Shown piece after piece: positions 4,157 through 19,764 of a stretch of DNA of 64,000 bases. Position numbers and translations under genes: made by a program. How positions within the stretch are numbered: the stretch's first letter is position 1; the number at the start of each line of letters is the position of its first letter. The stretch is from Halalkalirubrum salinum (lineage in GTDB: Archaea; Halobacteriota; Halobacteria; Halobacteriales; Haloferacaceae), in assembly GCF_005543295.1 (NCBI RefSeq), contig NZ_SRSG01000007.1, positions 1 to 64,000 of the forward strand, written 5' to 3'. The notes below the pieces were generated by a model. The model worked only from the letters and a program-made list of their open reading frames with translations. It was not told the DNA's origin and did not search any database.

Positions 4157-4341
4157 TGCAAATAGTGGGGCCCTGTTGAAGCCCTAAAGAATTGATAGGG
4201 TCGGCGTGCGAGATACAGAGCGTGAATTCAGCAAGTTCGAGTCGTCTCTATCCAAAATGAATTGGTTGAAACACCGTTAATTGCGTGAGCCATGCTGGTC
4301 AATTTTGACCCATTCTCACCCTACGATCTTGCAGGGAATAT

Positions 4342-4477
4342 TGTTTGTGGAGAGCGATTTGGTGATTTCACCAGGCGACCGTGGTCTACAAGAGGGGTGC
4401 GAGTCTAGTCCAGCGAGGAATTCTATCGGCCCAACTCAATGTATGGGCCGTCACCAACAATCTGCTTCACAAGAGTA
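4342..4477 (+). repeat. direct repeat DR1 (pairs with 5211-5353)
   Basis: Shares with DR2 the ordered words TGGAGAGCG, GCGACCGTG, GGGTGCGAG, GTCCAGCGAGGA, TTCTATC and CTTCACAAGAG over about 140 bp, with scattered substitutions and small indels. It lies upstream of the passenger gene of element A. A short frame through it (MLVNFDPFSPYDLAGNIV then GERFGDF) ends at a stop, so it may be the decayed start of another gene. Confidence 0.7.
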
Positions 4478-4510
4478 TATCATAATACATCTTATGATTG
4501 TAGCAAGTTC

Positions 4511-4518
4511 TATAAATA
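4511..4518 (+). promoter_or_regulatory. TATA box of the two-TM gene
   Basis: TATAAATA lies 28 nt before the ATG at 4539, the spacing of an archaeal TATA box that drives a leaderless transcript. This favours 4539 over upstream in-frame ATGs. Confidence 0.55.
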
Positions 4519-4538
4519 TCGTTGAGCAATTCTCATGT

Positions 4539-5174
4539 ATGTCAATAAGTGACGCAGCCCTCAATTCCCGAGTAACTAATGCTCTATCTGTAGGTCTAAC
4601 CAGTGGGGGTTTGCTTCTGGTAATAATCGGTGTGATACTCACTTTACAAAATATGCGGAATGGGAATTCTGCAGCGACTAGTCACTATTCTTCATTTGTA
4701 ACTGCTTCTGCGACAATAGTATTGGTAGGTGTGACATTATCGTATGCTTCAATTAGCAATCGGATTGCTAACGAGCATCAGAAAGACCGGCAACAGCGGA
4801 AGAATCAACGAGAAGAGGCAGCGAAGGGTCTGAGAAGGGCATTACGAAACGAGATCATGTCGGACAGTAACTACGACGACGCTATGGATTGGTCGTTGCA
4901 GGAGCTCATTACCGTAGAATCGTGGAGAAACGACAGACTGTACCTACAGAATGCTACACGGATGCATTTATTGACGGAAACTGAGATAGATAAGATTATT
5001 GGTTTTTATACAGCACAAAAATCGGTCGATAATATATGTAGCTCATACGAGACCTCAGATGATCTTCCTGAGAATTATGGTCGACTACATGAGAGAATCA
5101 GAAACAAACTCAAGGAGCTAGATACCGCACAAAAAAAGGCTAAATCTGAAATTGAACAGCATCTGGTTGATTAA
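4539..5174 (+). CDS. two-TM membrane protein with cytoplasmic helical tail (passenger of element A)
   Basis: A 211-residue protein starting MSISDAALNS. Two TM helices at about 20-38 (SGGLLLVIIGVILTL) and 52-72 (ASATIVLVGVTLSYAS) are followed by a charged, probably coiled-coil tail (EHQKDRQQRKNQREEAAKGL onward) ending KKAKSEIEQHLVD. The start is chosen from the TATA box at 4511. A longer frame from 4281 would translate the DR1 repeat and is rejected. No family recognised. The architecture (short TM hairpin plus helical cytosolic part) resembles many uncharacterised haloarchaeal accessory membrane proteins, some of which sit in defence islands, but no function is claimed. It occupies the place of the transposase in a TIR element. 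Confidence 0.65.
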   Translation: MSISDAALNSRVTNALSVGLTSGGLLLVIIGVILTLQNMRNGNSAATSHYSSFVTASATIVLVGVTLSYASISNRIANEHQKDRQQRKNQREEAAKGLRRALRNEIMSDSNYDDAMDWSLQELITVESWRNDRLYLQNATRMHLLTETEIDKIIGFYTAQKSVDNICSSYETSDDLPENYGRLHERIRNKLKELDTAQKKAKSEIEQHLVD

Positions 5175-5210
5175 AATCAAATGATTTCTTGACGCTCCTA
5201 TAGAGAGCAC

Positions 5211-5353
5211 TGTTGGTGGAGAGCGGTTCGGTAACTTTGCTGTGATTTAACCAAGCGACCGTGATCTCCAAGGTGGGTGCGAGGCTGGTCCAGCGAGGAG
5301 TTCTATCAGCCGAATACACGGGTCGTCACTAACAATTAGCTTCACAAGAGCAT
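5211..5353 (+). repeat. direct repeat DR2
   Basis: Second copy of the roughly 140-bp repeat described at 4342-4477, in the same orientation, directly downstream of the two-TM gene and upstream of the right-end box. The two copies bracket the gene, so the gene could have arrived between, or be removable by recombination between, the copies. Confidence 0.7.
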
Positions 5354-5555
5354 TTTTGACTACTCTGATGCGAGATATGCGGTGTGTATTCAGCAAGGCT
5401 GTTGAAACTTATCATCGATTGAGGGTTTCAACAAGGCTTTAAAAATCGAAAAAGAACCTGAACAGCTCATCGTACAGGAGACAGACGGTCGCGGCTGATT
5501 TTTTCATATACAAATGAAATGAGATGAGCGGGAGCTCAGGAATTCGCTCTGTTGA

Positions 5556-8244: not shown

Positions 8245-11133
8245 CTATTCGTCTTCGTCATTGCCTGCTTCGACTGTGCGAATGATGTCACGCAATTGGC
8301 CCAGTGAGAGTGGATCAATGTGCTGTCGTTCATTGGTCGCCGTATAGAAGATACTGGCAGTGACCTCCTTCTCGGGAAAACAGTCCGTGAGGACGTGGTA
8401 GTACACACTGAGCTGTTTGCAGTATTCTTTTTCCGCGCGTCGTGTCTGATCGGTTTTGTAGTCAATGATTTCAACGCGAGTTGGAGTCTCGTGGACAAGA
8501 TCGACGATCCCAGAGACAGTCACTTGCTCGCCATCCACCGCAAGCGGGAGCACTGCTCGTTCTTCGACGTGTAGATCGCCGGGGAGGGAGTCAATGAACG
8601 CTTTGACGTGTTGTTCGTCGTCAGCATCGCTAGTCGTTGGAGAGACATCTTCCCCGAGTGCGTAGGCCTCGGCGAAGTCGTGGACCCGTGATCCGAACTC
8701 TTGACCCCGGAACTCTACTGACTCCATGTGGATCTCCTCTGTTGCAAACACATCACTATCCATCAGCGTGTGTGGCGTATGGCCGATCGGACCATCTGAT
8801 GGCACGATAGAGAACGGGAGTTGCGCCTGCGTTGTCGTTGGCTGGTCAGCGGCGTCAATCGTGGTGTCCGTGGGACGAGGTGTGAATGGCAGTTCCTCAA
8901 AGAACGTGTTTGGCTCCTCGCCGCCCGCAAAAATAACGTGATTTTCAGCACGAGTGATAGCGACGTAGAGCAGTCGTCGTTCTTCATCGTAGTCACGAGA
9001 CAGACAATGACGGCTAATGTCGTGCCGCCAGTTGTCGTAGACGTGGGGATGATCTGCAACCGAGGCGTACGTTTTTCGCTGGCGGATGCCGAGCGGTTCG
9101 GTGAATTGAATAACGCCCGATCGACCTCCACGTGGAGGGAATTTCCCGGCATTCATGTTAGCGAGCACAACGATCGGGTATTCAAGCCCTTTTGCAGAGT
9201 GAATCGTCTGAACTGTGACCGAATTCACACCAGCACTGGTATATATGTCGTGCGTACTTCCCTGTTCGATCCCGCGTTCGATATACCGAATCAAGTCCCC
9301 GAGCGTCTGTGTTGACCCATTGTGGACGGACTGTATCGTGTGGAGGATGACATCCGCGTGTTCGCCGGTGTATCCGTATCGATCGAAAACTGCCCGGGCG
9401 ACAGCACCAACGGATTCTCGCTCACGGAGGTCGTCCCTGAACGCGATCATATTGTCGGGATACGCACCAGTGTCGAGGATGTGATCAACCTCATCAAGTG
9501 TGTATCCTGCGTGTTCGAGTACGACTGCCCAGCCACGGTCTGCATCAGCCGTAAGAATCCGCAGCCACGCGAGCAGAATCTTTGCCTGGTTCGTTCTGAA
9601 GAGTTCAATCCCGCCATCGTACGCCATCGGGAAATCATACTTCTCTGCCACCGACAGCAGTTCTCGGCCGAAGTCGCGGGTTCGGGTCAGAACTGCAATA
9701 TCTCCATATTCTGGCGGCCGTGGCTCGCCGTCATCGCCTTCCACAGCGTATGCTTCGGCCCCAACAATATCTTGGATGGTAGAGAGGACCGCCTCATGTT
9801 GATCGGCATGGGCTATCCCCTCGATATGCGTATTGTCAAACGCAGCATTGGCGGACAACGAGTCAATCTCTTCGAGTACCGATCGATCGACATCATCGTG
9901 TTTGCTGCCCGGCGTTACGAGTGCTTCTTCGGAAAAGTCAAGCAGCGTTTGTGTCGAACGGTAGTTTTCGGTGAGAGGAATTCTGGTACTGTCGTCGATG
10001 TCAAAGGAGATTCGAGTCCGATCGGCGTTGAGCTCAGCGGTAAACCGCTTGATTCGATTGTCGAATTCACGGATATTCTCGACAGCAGCGTACTGAAACG
10101 AATAGATACTTTGTTTCCAATCCCCGACAACGCAGATATTGTCTGTTTCGGCGAACAAGAGCGCGAGTTTGAATTGGATCTCACTCGTGTCTTGGAACTC
10201 ATCGATCATCACGTACTCGAAACTAACGCGGTCTCTGAGCGAGTCGTCTTCACATAAGAGGACAAATGCGAAGAGCTGCAAGAAGCCGAACGTGAGGTAG
10301 TTCCGGCTGAGTGCGAAGTCAAGATATTCGAAGTAGATGTCGTGAATAAACGCTTTGAGATCCTCTCGATCTTCTTCGAAAACACGCCTAGCGACGCTGT
10401 CGGGAACCTGTTTTGTCCTGCTACCTCTGATCTCAGATTTAGCTGGGGCATCAGGAAGATACGTCTTGTTTCGTCCGAATCGACTGAGTTTACCCCGGAG
10501 TTTTGACTGCTTGCTCCCGCCGTTTCGTGGCTGATTACTGTCCTCGAAGAGCCGCTTGAACGCGTCAAAATCACCGTCAAGCGCGTCCTCGCCATTTCGA
10601 TACCATCCGGTCGATGTGGGAAAGATTCCTTTTGAGGCAAGTTCTGAGACGATATTGAGCAGGTTGCGTGGAGAAGACAACACACGGAAGAAATCAGCAT
10701 ACTCAGGGTGATCGTCACAGAATCCATCAATGAACTCCGCAAAGAGTTCATTCTCGAGGAGATCGTCCTCAACGACACGTGTTGAGTCGGTGATGCGTTC
10801 AGAAAGCCCGAGATGTGTCGGGGCGTGATGCCCGTGTTCACGTAATAGATCGAAGCAGTGAGAATGGAACGTCTGTATCGAGCCTTCAGTTAATTCGCGG
10901 AGGGAGTACGTCGAGTGCTCAACAATGCGTTCTTTCATTTCGGTCGCAGCGCTCCGGGTGAACGTCACTAACAGAACGTCTTCTGGCTCCACGCCTGGTT
11001 GATCAACAATGCGTGCGTAGCGACGAGTGACAGCGAACGTTTTCCCGGTGCCTGCACCCGCATCAACAACGTATATGCCGTCAGTACTGTGGATGAGCTG
11101 CCGCTGCTGTGAATTCGGTGTCGGTTCAGTCAT
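8245..11133 (-). CDS. AddA/UvrD-like helicase-nuclease
   Basis: A 962-residue SF1A helicase with a C-terminal nuclease domain. Visible motifs are Walker A AGAGTGKT (25-32), motif Ia LLVTFTRSAATEMKERI, motif II MIDEFQDTSEIQF, motif III VGDWKQSIYSFQYA, motif IV TENYRSTQTLLDF, motif V TIHSAKGLEYPIVVL and motif VI RRLLYVAITRAENHVI. A PD-(D/E)xK nuclease follows near residues 830-930 (GSRVHDFAEAY, SGIVDLVHE, VEIIDYKTD, KQLSVYYHVL). This is the AddA/RecB-type plan for break resection or foreign DNA degradation. The length is shorter than typical bacterial AddA (about 1200 aa). Its ATG overlaps the last codons of the AddB-like gene by 8 nt, so the two are one operon. Confidence 0.85.
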   Translation of the reverse strand: MTEPTPNSQQRQLIHSTDGIYVVDAGAGTGKTFAVTRRYARIVDQPGVEPEDVLLVTFTRSAATEMKERIVEHSTYSLRELTEGSIQTFHSHCFDLLREHGHHAPTHLGLSERITDSTRVVEDDLLENELFAEFIDGFCDDHPEYADFFRVLSSPRNLLNIVSELASKGIFPTSTGWYRNGEDALDGDFDAFKRLFEDSNQPRNGGSKQSKLRGKLSRFGRNKTYLPDAPAKSEIRGSRTKQVPDSVARRVFEEDREDLKAFIHDIYFEYLDFALSRNYLTFGFLQLFAFVLLCEDDSLRDRVSFEYVMIDEFQDTSEIQFKLALLFAETDNICVVGDWKQSIYSFQYAAVENIREFDNRIKRFTAELNADRTRISFDIDDSTRIPLTENYRSTQTLLDFSEEALVTPGSKHDDVDRSVLEEIDSLSANAAFDNTHIEGIAHADQHEAVLSTIQDIVGAEAYAVEGDDGEPRPPEYGDIAVLTRTRDFGRELLSVAEKYDFPMAYDGGIELFRTNQAKILLAWLRILTADADRGWAVVLEHAGYTLDEVDHILDTGAYPDNMIAFRDDLRERESVGAVARAVFDRYGYTGEHADVILHTIQSVHNGSTQTLGDLIRYIERGIEQGSTHDIYTSAGVNSVTVQTIHSAKGLEYPIVVLANMNAGKFPPRGGRSGVIQFTEPLGIRQRKTYASVADHPHVYDNWRHDISRHCLSRDYDEERRLLYVAITRAENHVIFAGGEEPNTFFEELPFTPRPTDTTIDAADQPTTTQAQLPFSIVPSDGPIGHTPHTLMDSDVFATEEIHMESVEFRGQEFGSRVHDFAEAYALGEDVSPTTSDADDEQHVKAFIDSLPGDLHVEERAVLPLAVDGEQVTVSGIVDLVHETPTRVEIIDYKTDQTRRAEKEYCKQLSVYYHVLTDCFPEKEVTASIFYTATNERQHIDPLSLGQLRDIIRTVEAGNDEDE

Positions 11134-13732
11134 TGCTCACCTCCGTAAGAATGAGATCACGGTTATCCACTCGCCGGTAATTTGGCTCGCCCCCCAGCCC
11201 GTCAACCGGGAATCGACCGTTGCCGCGACGGTACTCATTGAGCTCTGTAATCCTGTCGGCGACGAATGCTTCGATTGCGTCTAAATCGGATTTGAAAAAC
11301 GAATCCTTCCGAATACCGTTGAGCGCCCGAATCGCTTGGTCACAGCCTTTTTCAGCATTAACACTGGCAGACGTGTGTTTCTTTACTGCGCTCGTAAACG
11401 ATGTCGCAAAGTCTGATTCGCGGAGTTCGGATTTGACTGTGCTGTCGGGGAATGAACGTTCACTCAGGATATCGTGGTATGCCTCGAATCCTAGGTCCTC
11501 GAACGTTTCGACGCAGTCGTTGTACCCGCCAAGCAGCGTCTTGTAGGCGGTGCGTGAACGAATATGCTCGTCGAACGACCACGGATAGTACGTCACTGTT
11601 GTGAGCGTATCGTCTAGGTTGGCGTCGCCGGCGATGACATCATCAAGCGTTTCAAGAAAGTGGAAGAACGTAAACTGCAGACGCTCGTCAGGCTGAACGG
11701 TCCGGAAATGGCAGAGGTACATTGCCGCCTGATAGTTTGGTGTGTCGTGTGGCGGGTCAATGGCTGATTGTTTGATCACATCGCGTTTGGACTTCTTGCG
11801 ACTGCTTTTGAAATCTAGTAGCTGATTCGGGCTGTTGATCAGGTCGATCTTGCCTTTCATCCCGAGCGCGGTATCCTCAAACCACCGCTCAGTGAGCGGC
11901 GAGTCTACCGGCGTATCGAAATAGTCTGCGAAGTAATTGTTACCCCACCCAGTGGCCGGCGTGAGAAAGTCATCGGCTGCCGGACCATGAGCATCCAAGT
12001 ATTCGATAATCGTCTCAAGCCCAATGCGGTACGTACGGCGGCGTAGCGGCTCGTCCGTATCGGACGTGAGCGACCGTGCCTCCGTGAGCATGACCTCGAT
12101 AATCTCGTTCAGGACAGCTGCATCAACGGCATCCGGGTGATTTACATAAAATTCTGCGAAGTCGTGAAACAGGTTGCCCTCTACAAAGTAATCTTGGTCC
12201 GGATTATCGACTAATCGACTGAAAAAGTAGTCCCGGGGACAATTGACGTACTTGTTGAGGCTTGATTGGCTAATTGCCTCTACCGACTCCGGAGCAACAT
12301 CGATCGGCTCTTTCTCAAACCCGGTTGAGTCTGTGTCGTACGATCGTCGGTGTCTGACGGCATTCAAGTCACTAAATCGCTCATAATCCGTATCGAGTAA
12401 CTCGTTAAAATACAGACACGGCGTGACTGGCTGTCCGCCTTGCGTGTCCTGCACGAGATAGTATTGCTCAACACCGCTTTGCAGAAGCAGCTGAAACTGG
12501 TTGAGATATCGCTGAAACTGTGCGTCAGTATCTACCCATGGTCGCTGTGGCGCACTGTGTGTCCACGCTTCATCAATCCCAAGATGGAACACAACAGGCC
12601 GATCGACATATCCTGACGATTTTGCATCAGCCAAGAGGACACCCTCATTCTCCCGATCCACTGGGACCTCGTAGGTTTGGAAATAATACGTGAGCTCATT
12701 GATTTTGTGTTGGCGAACGCGGCTGTGTAACAGCCCTAACCGAGATAGCTCTTCTCGGAATGCGTCTAACGGTTCCCCTGTCTCAGATGCATATTCGGTG
12801 AGTGCCGCTGAAAATGTCACATCAGACAATGACGTGCAAAACTCAGTCACCCACGTCGTCGCCGGGAGATCAACCTCAAACAGTCGCTTGTTGTCGTGAT
12901 CGATCGGGACATCCACACCCATCTGCGTCAGCGTTGGCTTCACATCTCCGACGGTCGTTTCCGAGCCGCGGAACGCAGTCCGGCAGAGATTAAGGAACGC
13001 ACGATGGTGTGGGTTGTCAATGAATCCTGGTCCACCATAATACGGGATGTCGGCGGCTTCCAACCCAGCTTCGATAAGCGAGGAGTACCGGCTGTTGGCA
13101 TCCAATACAATAGCAACGTTCTCTGCAGTGTCGGGCGTGACGGTGTCGAGAATCGCACTCACAATATCTGCTGATGAGTCGAAAATATTGAACGAGGGGT
13201 ACGCGAACGACTCAGCGGTGAATAACTCAATTTGATCGTATTCGTCAGGGAGGACGCTCTGCTCTAATGTCGTCAACTGCTCTCCGCCGACAACTGCGAC
13301 AGACTCCGTATCGATGGTACACTCAGTGAGTGATTGTGATGTCGATCGGAGATCTGCCATGATGTCAACGACATCTCGGGTTACCTCATCAACATACGCA
13401 TCATACTCAAGAATTGACTCAATGGTCCCTTGATGCTCCCAGCACTGTAGGATATTCCCGATGGCGTAACTCACTGACTTCCAATCGTGGTCAGTTTGCT
13501 GCACAACTTCTAAAAACGCGGTTCGGTCCTCTGCTTGTTCTCGACGGCCTGCCGCAAATCGACGAGGAGTTGTCGCAAATGTGCCGAACTGTGGCACATC
13601 CACTCGACGATTGATTGCGCTTGCCAATGGTGCGTCTGGGGTGAGGACTAACTCATACTCTGAGACTTCTTCATAGAGTTGTTGAACTGGTTTAGCGCGC
13701 TGAATAGGCACGCTTCTACAGTGCGCAACCAC
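11126..13732 (-). CDS. AddB-like nuclease subunit
   Basis: An 868-residue protein and operon partner of the AddA-like helicase. The N-terminal about 480 residues look like a degenerate helicase scaffold (YELVLTPDAPLASAINRRV, IAIVLDANSRYSSLI-like strand, YYGGPGFIDNPHHRAFLNL), without the Walker A GxxGxGKT of bacterial AddB. A PD-(D/E)xK nuclease follows: SQSSLNKYVNCPRDYFFSRL near 495, GNLFHDFAEFYVNHPD, and the catalytic MKGKIDLINS ... LLDFKSSRKKSK near 645-670. CPRDYFF is the Cys that opens the Fe-S motif in AddB/Cas4 nucleases, but the later C-x2-C-type cluster is not evident. It probably forms a heterodimer with AddA acting on DNA ends. Confidence 0.75.
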   Translation of the reverse strand: MVAHCRSVPIQRAKPVQQLYEEVSEYELVLTPDAPLASAINRRVDVPQFGTFATTPRRFAAGRREQAEDRTAFLEVVQQTDHDWKSVSYAIGNILQCWEHQGTIESILEYDAYVDEVTRDVVDIMADLRSTSQSLTECTIDTESVAVVGGEQLTTLEQSVLPDEYDQIELFTAESFAYPSFNIFDSSADIVSAILDTVTPDTAENVAIVLDANSRYSSLIEAGLEAADIPYYGGPGFIDNPHHRAFLNLCRTAFRGSETTVGDVKPTLTQMGVDVPIDHDNKRLFEVDLPATTWVTEFCTSLSDVTFSAALTEYASETGEPLDAFREELSRLGLLHSRVRQHKINELTYYFQTYEVPVDRENEGVLLADAKSSGYVDRPVVFHLGIDEAWTHSAPQRPWVDTDAQFQRYLNQFQLLLQSGVEQYYLVQDTQGGQPVTPCLYFNELLDTDYERFSDLNAVRHRRSYDTDSTGFEKEPIDVAPESVEAISQSSLNKYVNCPRDYFFSRLVDNPDQDYFVEGNLFHDFAEFYVNHPDAVDAAVLNEIIEVMLTEARSLTSDTDEPLRRRTYRIGLETIIEYLDAHGPAADDFLTPATGWGNNYFADYFDTPVDSPLTERWFEDTALGMKGKIDLINSPNQLLDFKSSRKKSKRDVIKQSAIDPPHDTPNYQAAMYLCHFRTVQPDERLQFTFFHFLETLDDVIAGDANLDDTLTTVTYYPWSFDEHIRSRTAYKTLLGGYNDCVETFEDLGFEAYHDILSERSFPDSTVKSELRESDFATSFTSAVKKHTSASVNAEKGCDQAIRALNGIRKDSFFKSDLDAIEAFVADRITELNEYRRGNGRFPVDGLGGEPNYRRVDNRDLILTEVSND

Positions 13733-17797: not shown

Positions 17798-17804
17798 AAT
17801 CTTT
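17798..17804. repeat. target-site duplication, left copy
   Basis: AATCTTT directly abuts the left terminal repeat at 17805 and is repeated exactly at 19549-19555 directly after the right terminal repeat. Confidence 0.75.
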
Positions 17805-18007
17805 GGGCTCTGTTGAACTCCTCAATTAGTGATACTTTTCACCGAGCTTGCTGAATACACAGCGCGAGTCGGGGACGGTACTGATGGGAGTATGTCGGCG
17901 GTAGTTGGGGAGGGGTCGCCAAATTGGGGTGCCTATTCGCTGCTGTTCGGGTCGTCTATCGGCACTGTCCTCGCACGCTGTAATTCCTGATGATAGAGTA
18001 ATAATTA

Positions 18008-19414
18008 GTGAGTAGAGATGGAAAGCAACCTGTGACACTAGAAGACTTTTCAGAGGAGCAACGACAGTCCGTCGAGACGTTCATCTCGGACTGGTTGACC
18101 CAACATCGGATTCCCGGGGCTGCAGTAGCCGTCACCGAGGAGGGCTCGGTGGTCGCGGAAGGGTTCGGCGCCCGAACGCTTGAGAACAACACGCCGGTGA
18201 CCGGAGACACGCTGTTCGGTATCGGTTCCTGTACCAAGGCGTTCACCGCGACGGCCATCATGCAACTCGTCGAGCAGGGTGAGTTGGCACTCGATGATCC
18301 GGTCGACGAGTATATCCCGCATCTGATTGATGTGCCCGGTGAGCCGGTCACCGTCGAAGAGTTGCTCACGCACACCTCGGGTATGCCGAGCGACGACGTT
18401 GCACTGCCGCTTGTGGCCCGGCAATTCGGCGCCGGGGGTGAGGTGCCCTTATCAAGTGAAGCAGATTACCGCCGCCATGTTCAGGGGTCGACCGACCGTC
18501 GAGTCACCGACCGCGAGACGTTCTTTTACTACAACTCGGGCTATATCATGCTCGGGCGCATCATCGAGACAGTTTCCGGGAAAGAGTTCGCAGCGTACCT
18601 CGAAGAGGAGCTACTGAGCCCGCTCGGCTTAGAACGAGTGACGTTCGACCGAGATGTTTTCGAGGAAGACGACGATCGGATGACTCCGTACATGAAACAG
18701 GAGGGGCAGTCGGCGGAAGCGCCGTTCCCGTTCGACCCGCTCATCTATCCCGGGGGAGGACTCGTCAGCTCGGTACGCGATCTCGCTCACTTCGTGCGTG
18801 AGCTGTTAGACGGTGAAAGCGGCGATGAGGCTCTCCTGACGGCTGAGAGTCGCGCCTCAATGACCTCTCCGGTTGCGACACGTTCACGGTATCTTGATGG
18901 GAAGGAGGTCGGGTATGGATACGGACTCGCTATCGAGGAATTTCTCGGTGACGACCTGATCAGCCACGGGGGGTCAATCGGTGTGTCGAACGCATGGTTC
19001 GGATATCTAGAGGAAGCGGAACTCGGCGTCGCCATCGCTTGCACGACCACGCCCGAGACACACCCAGCCAAGGCCGGGAGGGGGGTTTTGGCGCTTCTCA
19101 AAGACGAAGACCCCGACGAAGTTCTCCCGTACTACCAACTCAAGAATGCGCTGAAGACGGCGTCGGGCGAGTATGCCGGGTACCAGAGCATCTCTCAGGC
19201 CAGCGTCGAACGCATTGGAAGCAACCTGAAACTACAGGTAGAGACAGCCGCTGGTGGGCAGGAGTTTCTACTCGTGCCTACATCCGTCGAAGAGGCACAG
19301 TTGAGTTGTACGACAGCTGACCCGATGGGCATGAAACAGGATGTTCGCTTCGAGCTACAGGGCGATGAGGTTGACCTCTTTATCAGCCGCTTTCGGTTTA
19401 CCAAGTCAGCCTGA
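18008..19414 (+). CDS. serine beta-lactamase/PBP-like hydrolase (passenger of element B)
   Basis: A 468-residue protein with a GTG start at 18008 (no ATG fits upstream of the conserved domain). It has class C beta-lactamase/D-peptidase family motifs: S-x-x-K in GIGSCTKAFTATAIMQLV (S74, K77), Y-x-N in FFYYNSGYIMLGRI (174-176) and HGG in LISHGGSIGVSNAWFGY near 320. Extra signatures are LTHTSGMPS and YGYGLAIEEF. The C-terminal about 100 residues are an added beta domain (YAGYQSISQASVERIG onward). No signal peptide is seen, so it is probably cytosolic. Archaea lack peptidoglycan, so substrates are more likely peptides, esters or small amides. Codon use is richer in GC than the flanks, in keeping with transfer. 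Confidence 0.85.
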   Translation: MSRDGKQPVTLEDFSEEQRQSVETFISDWLTQHRIPGAAVAVTEEGSVVAEGFGARTLENNTPVTGDTLFGIGSCTKAFTATAIMQLVEQGELALDDPVDEYIPHLIDVPGEPVTVEELLTHTSGMPSDDVALPLVARQFGAGGEVPLSSEADYRRHVQGSTDRRVTDRETFFYYNSGYIMLGRIIETVSGKEFAAYLEEELLSPLGLERVTFDRDVFEEDDDRMTPYMKQEGQSAEAPFPFDPLIYPGGGLVSSVRDLAHFVRELLDGESGDEALLTAESRASMTSPVATRSRYLDGKEVGYGYGLAIEEFLGDDLISHGGSIGVSNAWFGYLEEAELGVAIACTTTPETHPAKAGRGVLALLKDEDPDEVLPYYQLKNALKTASGEYAGYQSISQASVERIGSNLKLQVETAAGGQEFLLVPTSVEEAQLSCTTADPMGMKQDVRFELQGDEVDLFISRFRFTKSA

Positions 19415-19493
19415 GCCGCCAGTTGTGTAGCTCGCCAGCGGCAGACAGCTCTTTTACCCAGTCACGAGGCGGTGCTGTTTGTTCGGGACTCAT
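19398..19493 (-). pseudogene. possible transposase N-terminal stump
   Basis: Starts ATG at 19493, 27 bp inside the right TIR of element B, and reads MSPEQTAPPRDWVKELSAAG then ELHNWRLRLTW before a stop that overlaps the end of the beta-lactamase-like gene. A start codon this close to an IS end is where a transposase would begin. Similarity appears to stop where the passenger gene begins. No family recognised from 31 residues. Confidence 0.35.
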
Positions 19494-19548
19494 GCTGACT
19501 ATATGCAGCACGCGCTTCCTATCAGTTGCTGAGGGTTTCAACAAGCCC

Positions 19549-19555
19549 AATCTTT
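19549..19555. repeat. target-site duplication, right copy
   Basis: AATCTTT immediately after the right TIR of element B, identical to 17798-17804. Confidence 0.75.
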
Positions 19556-19764
19556 GATATAGCAATCTCAAATCCATCGATCCGATGTGTTTGACCCGGT
19601 CGAACCCTAGTATTATGTGCGTGCGCTGTCATTCAAATGTAAGCGAATCGCATGACAATGGCGACCCCCATCACGGAGCGTGACGAAATCAACACGGCCG
19701 AAGAGGGGTTCTTTTATAAGTGTCGTACTGCCGTCTGCCAAATGTTAGTCGTCACGCAGAATGA
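19556..19764. other. intergenic stretch between element B and tRNA
   Basis: No gene seen. A CTTTTATAAG word near 19712 could be a TATA box. No copy of the tRNA 3' end was found by eye. Confidence 0.35.

Follow-up and report, generated by a model that had tools for sequence, protein, structure and literature searches.

Two elements with common ends in the window

The window analyzed here, i.e., the whole 64,000-nucleotide stretch of Halalkalirubrum salinum contig NZ_SRSG01000007.1, carries two small elements, one spanning 4169-5438 (1,270 bp; the focal element) and one spanning 17806-19548 (1,743 bp; inverted relative to the first), and the question raised by this locus is what such elements are and how genes come to lie in them. 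The initial annotation had assigned both elements the same ends and a shared box, had noted that neither holds a transposase, and had taken their unrelated cargo as a sign of a family of passenger-gene cassettes. Our data agree with the first three points: profile matches placed an L-type and an R-type end on both elements, in opposite orientation; three copies of the box GTGTATTCAGCAAG lie in the window if up to 2 mismatches are allowed, where 0.13 would be expected; and an ORF check found no transposase within the two elements. The focal ends scored 67.7 bits (L-type, 4169-4234) and 72.1 bits (R-type, 5368-5438) with profiles whose seed set included them, and the same profiles also detect independent copies elsewhere. 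Chance similarity of AT-rich DNA, which the initial annotation had named as the alternative, does not account for the ends.

The second element is cleanly inserted, with an 8-bp target duplication on its two sides (Table 1), and at its empty site in the congeneric genome G001 the flanks are joined with a single target copy (ATTTTTTG). No target duplication flanks the focal element, at whose ends 1 of 8 positions matches, and no copy of its left flank was found elsewhere. Because homology to G001 begins exactly at the focal right end, 5438 is a true breakpoint.

As to the cargo of the focal element, the best reading of the two-transmembrane gene described initially is an ORF of 212 aa with two hydrophobic segments, which were called by eye. 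Its match to Pfam family DUF7269 (E = 0.0024) is below the cut-off, and we rejected an identity as the defense protein LeoBC, for which the match is weak (E = 3e-5) and probably reflects coiled-coil similarity. The direct repeats noted on either side of this ORF are real and imperfect (140-160 bp; 121 of 167 alignment columns identical), and they do not stem from one gene split in two, as both lie in noncoding DNA flanking the cargo ORF. Recombination between these repeats, proposed as the route by which the cargo came in, found no support: the exchange sits at the 29-bp boxes described below, and no further copy of the repeats was found among the loci or plasmids searched. Elsewhere in the window, at 8245-13732, large ORFs of 962 and 868 aa lie side by side and resemble, by eye, an AddA/AddB-type helicase-nuclease pair.

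Table 1 Positions of the features of the two elements within the window
Feature	Position	Strand	Remarks
Left terminal inverted repeat (TIR) and L spacer, focal element	4169..4205	+	GGCCCTGTTGAAGCCC...; TIR as in IS5-family elements
Lbox, focal element	4206..4234	+	arm GTGCGAGATAC, core AGAGCGT, arm GAATTCAGCAA
Direct repeat 1, focal element	4323..4478	+	noncoding, within cassette
Cargo ORF, focal element	4536..5174	+	212 aa; two hydrophobic segments, C-terminal half charged
Direct repeat 2, focal element	5192..5353	+	
Rbox, focal element	5368..5396	+	arm ATGCGAGATAT, core GCGGTGT, arm GTATTCAGCAA
R spacer and right TIR, focal element	5397..5438	-	G001 homology begins at 5438
8-bp target duplication, left copy, second element	17798..17805	.	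AATCTTTG
Right TIR and R spacer, second element	17806..17847	-	
Rbox, second element	17848..17876	-	
Cargo, second element	18008..19414	+	468 aa, serine beta-lactamase-fold (PF00144) and Pab87_oct domain
Lbox, second element, degenerate	19483..19511	-	
Left TIR and L spacer, second element	19512..19548	-	
8-bp target duplication, right copy, second element	19549..19556	.	AATCTTTG, exact

A family of single-gene cassettes

The family surmised from these two elements does exist, with many more copies and unrelated cargo in this genome and its relatives. Each end of the two window elements consists of an outer terminal repeat of IS5 type (GGCTCTGTTGAAA...; consensus GGCTCTGTTGAAATCCTCAG) and, approximately 37-43 bp further in, a 29-bp box built of two 11-bp arms around a 7-bp core. 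Read from left to right, the Lbox has the form GTGCGAGATAC-AGAGGGT-GTATTCAGCAC and the Rbox the form arm-GCGCTCT-GTATTCAGCAC; the cores follow the patterns AGAGNNT (left) and GCGCNNT (right), and both begin with AGAG when read inward. Searches of the window's own genome matched the focal query 9 times and, at a loose threshold, the C20 right end 27 times. Pairing of ends by profile then delimited elements of 0.6-2.5 kb, in this genome as well as in relatives, with cargo that differs from one element to the next. Among 29 elements, 3 reach contig ends, leaving 26 testable for a target duplication, which was exact in 9, matched at 7 of 8 positions in 5, and was absent in 12; the chance of a match of at least 7/8 for random 8-mers is 0.00055.

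Over the fetched loci we counted 196 cassettes (median inner length, 708 bp), which gave 163 distinct longest ORFs, and 142 of these were scanned together with the focal cargo, entered in its 212-aa form in place of a 297-aa ORF, for a total of 143. The roughly 20 ORFs omitted from the scan, mostly short, include two at recombinase loci (L167:5909-6583 and L272:10001-10990). That no recombinase appears among the 25 commonest cargo families listed is therefore partly by construction. Among the cargo recognized by eye are a CPBP protease, a serine acetyltransferase, a cation exchanger, universal stress proteins, and an AbrB/PIN pair. Defense as a general theme of the cargo was rejected, since PADLOC gave only scattered matches among the 143 ORFs. 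The C25 cassette contains a nested inverted repeat, GGTCGCGTCGCAAAG (L012:585-771), that resembles a small IS6-type miniature element.

Cassettes joined into arrays

Cassettes also occur in series, in which each interval is marked by a junction consisting of an Rbox, 38 bp, and an Lbox. On a Haladaptatus plasmid (L117), for example, a single L end and a single R end enclose four junctions, with an ORF in every interval; genome G174 has >20 junctions within one region, and at least 28 junctions were scored in G035. Neighboring junctions within 2.5 kb of each other have the same orientation in 111 cases and the opposite orientation in 1. The 38-bp spacer has a consensus of its own, ending in CTGTCAGAAACGGC, and the terminal repeats are missing from array junctions. 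Six contigs of the window genome (L087, L078, L077, L079 [at their starts], L112, and L113) share approximately 90 bp at an end, which in four of the six is fused to the box (TGAATACAG); these shared ends are probably one repeated long unit that is joined at the box and breaks the assembly.

A model of the junction matched 205 of 293 Halobacteriales genomes (E ≤ 1e-4). Within a sample of the phylum it matched 19 of 24 Halobacteriales genomes and 0 of 124 other genomes, 109 of these nonmatching genomes being assigned outside Halobacteriales because the list was ordered by kinship.

Exchange occurs at the box core

Where the same cassette was found in different contexts, the cassette is similar, the surroundings are dissimilar, and the shared sequence ends at the box core. 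Pairs were kept for breakpoint mapping if their inner identity was ≥0.8 and their outer identity <0.62. For the left outer arm (11 nonredundant pairs), identities at positions -7 to -5 were 0.18, 0.27, and 0.00, versus 0.24, 0.40, and 0.46, respectively, for unrelated sites, i.e., the background. In these 11 pairs, identity rose well above background just inside AGAG, reached 1.00 at +4, ranged from 0.64 to 1.00 (mostly 0.7 to 1.0) further in, and was 1.00 at +11 to +16. At the right end, identity ends after GCGC in alignments read by hand, with only 3 pairs having met the strict filter.

A swap in situ was observed between the congeneric genomes G253 and G271, which share a 2.3-kb flank (98% identity), approximately 1.5 kb of the other flank (94 to 96%), and both junctions. 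Between the shared junctions lie different cassettes, both switch points fall within the boxes, at their cores, and the swapped cassette of G253 is 93% identical to one in G035. The end of homology at the box core, together with this replacement of one cassette in place, argues for site-specific recombination. Homologous recombination between repeated junction sequences would also swap cassettes, and the junctions are indeed repeats of approximately 93 bp that are similar within a genome; however, the crossovers of the 11 left-end pairs cluster in the 7-bp core and the outer arms are as dissimilar as those of unrelated pairs, and we give this explanation hardly any credence.

Forms devoid of a cassette were also found. 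In L076, a cassette-free box has an R end on one side and a junction spacer on the other, and G086 holds a 108-bp element (L259:1501-1608) with two TIRs around a single box, a form that had been predicted beforehand; no target duplication flanks this empty element. An exact-pattern census, which is a weak one, found empty elements in 1 of 392 genomes, a low count attributable to exact TIRs being probably rare.

A minimal tyrosine recombinase at the spacer position

A candidate enzyme for the exchange is a 234-aa tyrosine recombinase that consists essentially of the catalytic domain alone (PF00589). It has the fold and the catalytic R..K..HxxR..W/H..Y signature of tyrosine recombinases, the first His being Tyr in the first aligned sequence; all of 21 homologues share Arg65, Lys124, Arg184, Trp207, and Tyr216, and His181 is almost as constant. 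In structural comparison, the AlphaFold model, which is of moderate quality (pLDDT 67), had XerA as its top match and an integron integrase among the best matches. Homologues are present in 87 of 392 Halobacteriales genomes (E ≤ 1e-20, distant homologues counted). Among the carriers of an intact recombinase unit are Halorientalis and Natronorubrum halalkaliphilum.

The recombinase gene is associated with the sites and occupies a fixed place among them. Sites were found within 1.5 kb in 24 of the 30 best recombinase loci versus 9 of 30 integrase controls, two of which belong to the 234-aa recombinase family, and likewise in 20 of 25 named recombinase loci. Boxes flank the gene on both sides in 32 of 42 recombinase loci, although the 42 include probable double entries (L239/L262, L238/L261, L242/L263, and L252/L275, among others) and thus represent fewer independent cases. 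The order was Rbox-int-Lbox, i.e., the spacer position, in all 32, and none of 28 other integrases had both boxes. In L242, L263, and L264 the best score was for the order L-int-R, with one box only detected. Since the recombinase takes the spacer position in every scored locus, we read the 38-bp spacer as a remnant of a recombinase unit, probably derived from it by deletion. By the same placement, the 234-aa recombinase would be the catalyst of exchange at the boxes.

Other integrases near arrays (L155, L084, and L191, among others) were dismissed as candidates, as they are diverse and have no consistent placement. At L155:5075-6118, an integrase catalytic domain is fused to a zinc ribbon immediately upstream of a cassette array.

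The recombinase gene is missing from the window genome, its congener, and G174, and arrays there are therefore static or served by another enzyme. Such an enzyme could be the host's XerA, which would act on the boxes as dif-like sites in an archaeal counterpart of dif modules, with the 234-aa recombinase as a successful passenger. The 11-7-11 architecture and alternating orientation of the boxes do resemble dif modules (PMC13141974); G000 and G174 bear arrays and lack the 234-aa enzyme; and at least 5 of 6 genomes scanned encode a conserved XerA-like protein. We nonetheless consider this role of XerA unlikely. The box is no universal dif: of 12 array-free genomes, 7 gave no match when up to 1 mismatch was allowed and 5 gave one, and the reversed control pattern gave 0 matches in 16 genomes. 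The recombinase took the spacer position, rather than that of cargo, in all 32 scored loci, and no other cargo gene was observed to recur between boxes in this manner.

The outer ends are those of IS5-family elements

The terminal repeats led to a second class of enzyme. An element with cassette-type TIRs (L081:625-2451; 1.8 kb, 7/8 duplication) contains a decayed IS5 transposase, and plasmid relatives of this transposase are annotated as IS5 family transposases. In all six IS5 transposase loci the left TIR was present at the same offset (13 of 13 bases), and two of the six, in Haloprofundus sp. MHR1 and Halomarina sp. BCD28, had both TIRs and a perfect 8-bp duplication; in the remaining four, the right TIR was not found in the stretch scanned. 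Because a full IS5-family element shares both the ends and the 8-bp duplications, IS5 is the likely helper, and its transposase, judged from these sequences, likely mobilizes the cassettes in trans. The subgroup involved is presumably ISH1-like. IS6, suggested as the mobilizing family by the combination of TIR and 8-bp duplication, was rejected, as the IS6 copies in the genome and its congener have other TIRs. The L081 element also holds an ORF that resembles, by eye, an aminoglycoside 3-N-acetyltransferase.

Elements with the same TIRs, 7- to 8-bp duplications, and weak or missing boxes were found at L069:14653-15945, L082:2384-3228 (whose cargo is, by eye, an AbrB/PIN pair), and L073:1667-2765, and they may represent a separate, older layer of passenger elements. 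Together with L081:625-2451, the first two of these box-less elements would suit an explanation in which all units are ordinary mobile insertion cassettes, i.e., transposons with IS5 ends whose arrays arise when elements transpose in tandem or into one another and the inner terminal repeats disappear, as would the IS5 TIRs and 8-bp duplications in general. Such an origin is very improbable: the junctions have one conserved 38-bp spacer rather than variable TIR remnants, the exchange points lie at the box core rather than at the TIRs, and the duplication is borne by whole arrays, perfectly so in L116 (4.2 kb, ACCGACGT), L092 (5.4 kb, GGAATTGA), and L278 (5.7 kb, GAAGGATT).

A probable two-layer mobile system

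The focal element is, very probably, a one-gene cassette of a two-layer haloarchaeal mobile system. In the inner layer, site-specific recombination would act at the two 29-bp boxes that flank a gene. Recombination within the cores would exchange gene units; alternatively, a gene and a 38-bp spacer unit (Rbox-spacer-Lbox) would be gained or lost as a pair, and as gene units alternate with spacer units, arrays could grow. The candidate catalyst would be the 234-aa minimal tyrosine recombinase, whose gene takes the place of the spacer, with an Rbox on one side and an Lbox on the other. The arrays with their spacing and orientation, the core breakpoints, the in-situ swap, the empty box, and the 108-bp element are direct observations on this layer. 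In the outer layer, the outermost units terminate in repeats of the IS5 family, and insertion of a single cassette or an entire array with an 8-bp target duplication is presumably the work of an IS5 transposase supplied in trans; here the observations are the TIR common to intact IS5 elements, the duplications, and one empty site. The outer layer, with passenger genes between IS ends, is ordinary; the inner layer is striking. Certainty is highest for the existence of cassettes and arrays, for the breakpoints in the core, and for the 8-bp duplications; it is lower for the identity of the acting enzyme and for activity today.

Comparison with known systems

Haloarchaea are known for rampant gene exchange. 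The system is present in most sampled Halobacteriales and holds many different accessory genes, and it may therefore explain part of the small-island patchwork in their genomes. Its compact recombinase with defined sites could be tested directly in Haloferax volcanii, and the system offers a natural comparison for the independent origin of integron-like systems. We think it probable that it constitutes a third independent class of cassette capture beside integrons and dif modules, in which cargo alternates with recombinase units (mostly shrunk to the 38-bp spacer), a dedicated minimal tyrosine recombinase is employed, the whole is spread by IS5 transposition, and about two-thirds of Halobacteriales have such arrays. 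The system is apparently undescribed: no account of it was found in searches of open-access papers, the text of a paper on archaeal integrons (Ghaly 2022, PMC9668308) contains neither "haloarchaea" nor a word beginning with "Halobacter," and the word "cassette" is missing from a review of archaeal tyrosine recombinases (PMC8371274).

Acinetobacter dif modules comprise one or a few genes between ~28-bp sites of two 11-bp arms and a short core; the sites alternate in orientation and two kinds of unit alternate, with single units exchanged and pairs gained or lost (PMC13141974). The haloarchaeal system is closer in behavior to dif modules than to integrons, sharing the alternating orientation and the exchange of units at the core (AGAG forward and reverse). 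It differs from the pdif sites of XerC/XerD, as given there, in site sequence and in a core of 7 rather than 6 bp. Further differences from dif modules are that the haloarchaeal units lie inside an IS5-ended transposon, on archaeal chromosomes and plasmids, and that what alternates with the cargo is a 38-bp spacer or the gene of a dedicated recombinase.

With integrons (IntI/attC) the system shares tandem one-gene cassettes of approximately 0.7 kb with a conserved recombination site between them, a tyrosine recombinase, and possible transport on transposons. A folded, attC-like junction was rejected, as RNAalifold, the one method used, predicted no pair in 14 junctions. Against the NCBIfam integron integrase model, the 234-aa recombinase scored 22.5 bits (E = 6e-5) with a cut-off of 265; being little more than a catalytic domain, it is not an IntI-type enzyme, which has an additional domain. 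Unlike in integrons, the cargo genes face both ways, the longest ORFs (≥100 aa) running along the array in 84 cases and against it in 63. The haloarchaeal system thus fits the definition of neither integrons nor dif modules.

Mobile insertion cassettes (MIC; IS231-type) and transporter IS carry a passenger gene between IS ends, have no transposase, and are presumably mobilized in trans. The haloarchaeal units likewise have IS ends, a passenger gene, no transposase, and a target duplication, the focal copy itself being without one. They share the terminal repeat and 8-bp duplication of intact IS5-family elements but lack the transposase; an own DDE transposase was found in neither window element, and among the cassette-type elements only the decayed one at L081 has one. 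They differ from MIC in that the gene is exchangeable between the ends via dedicated recombination sites and in that arrays form.
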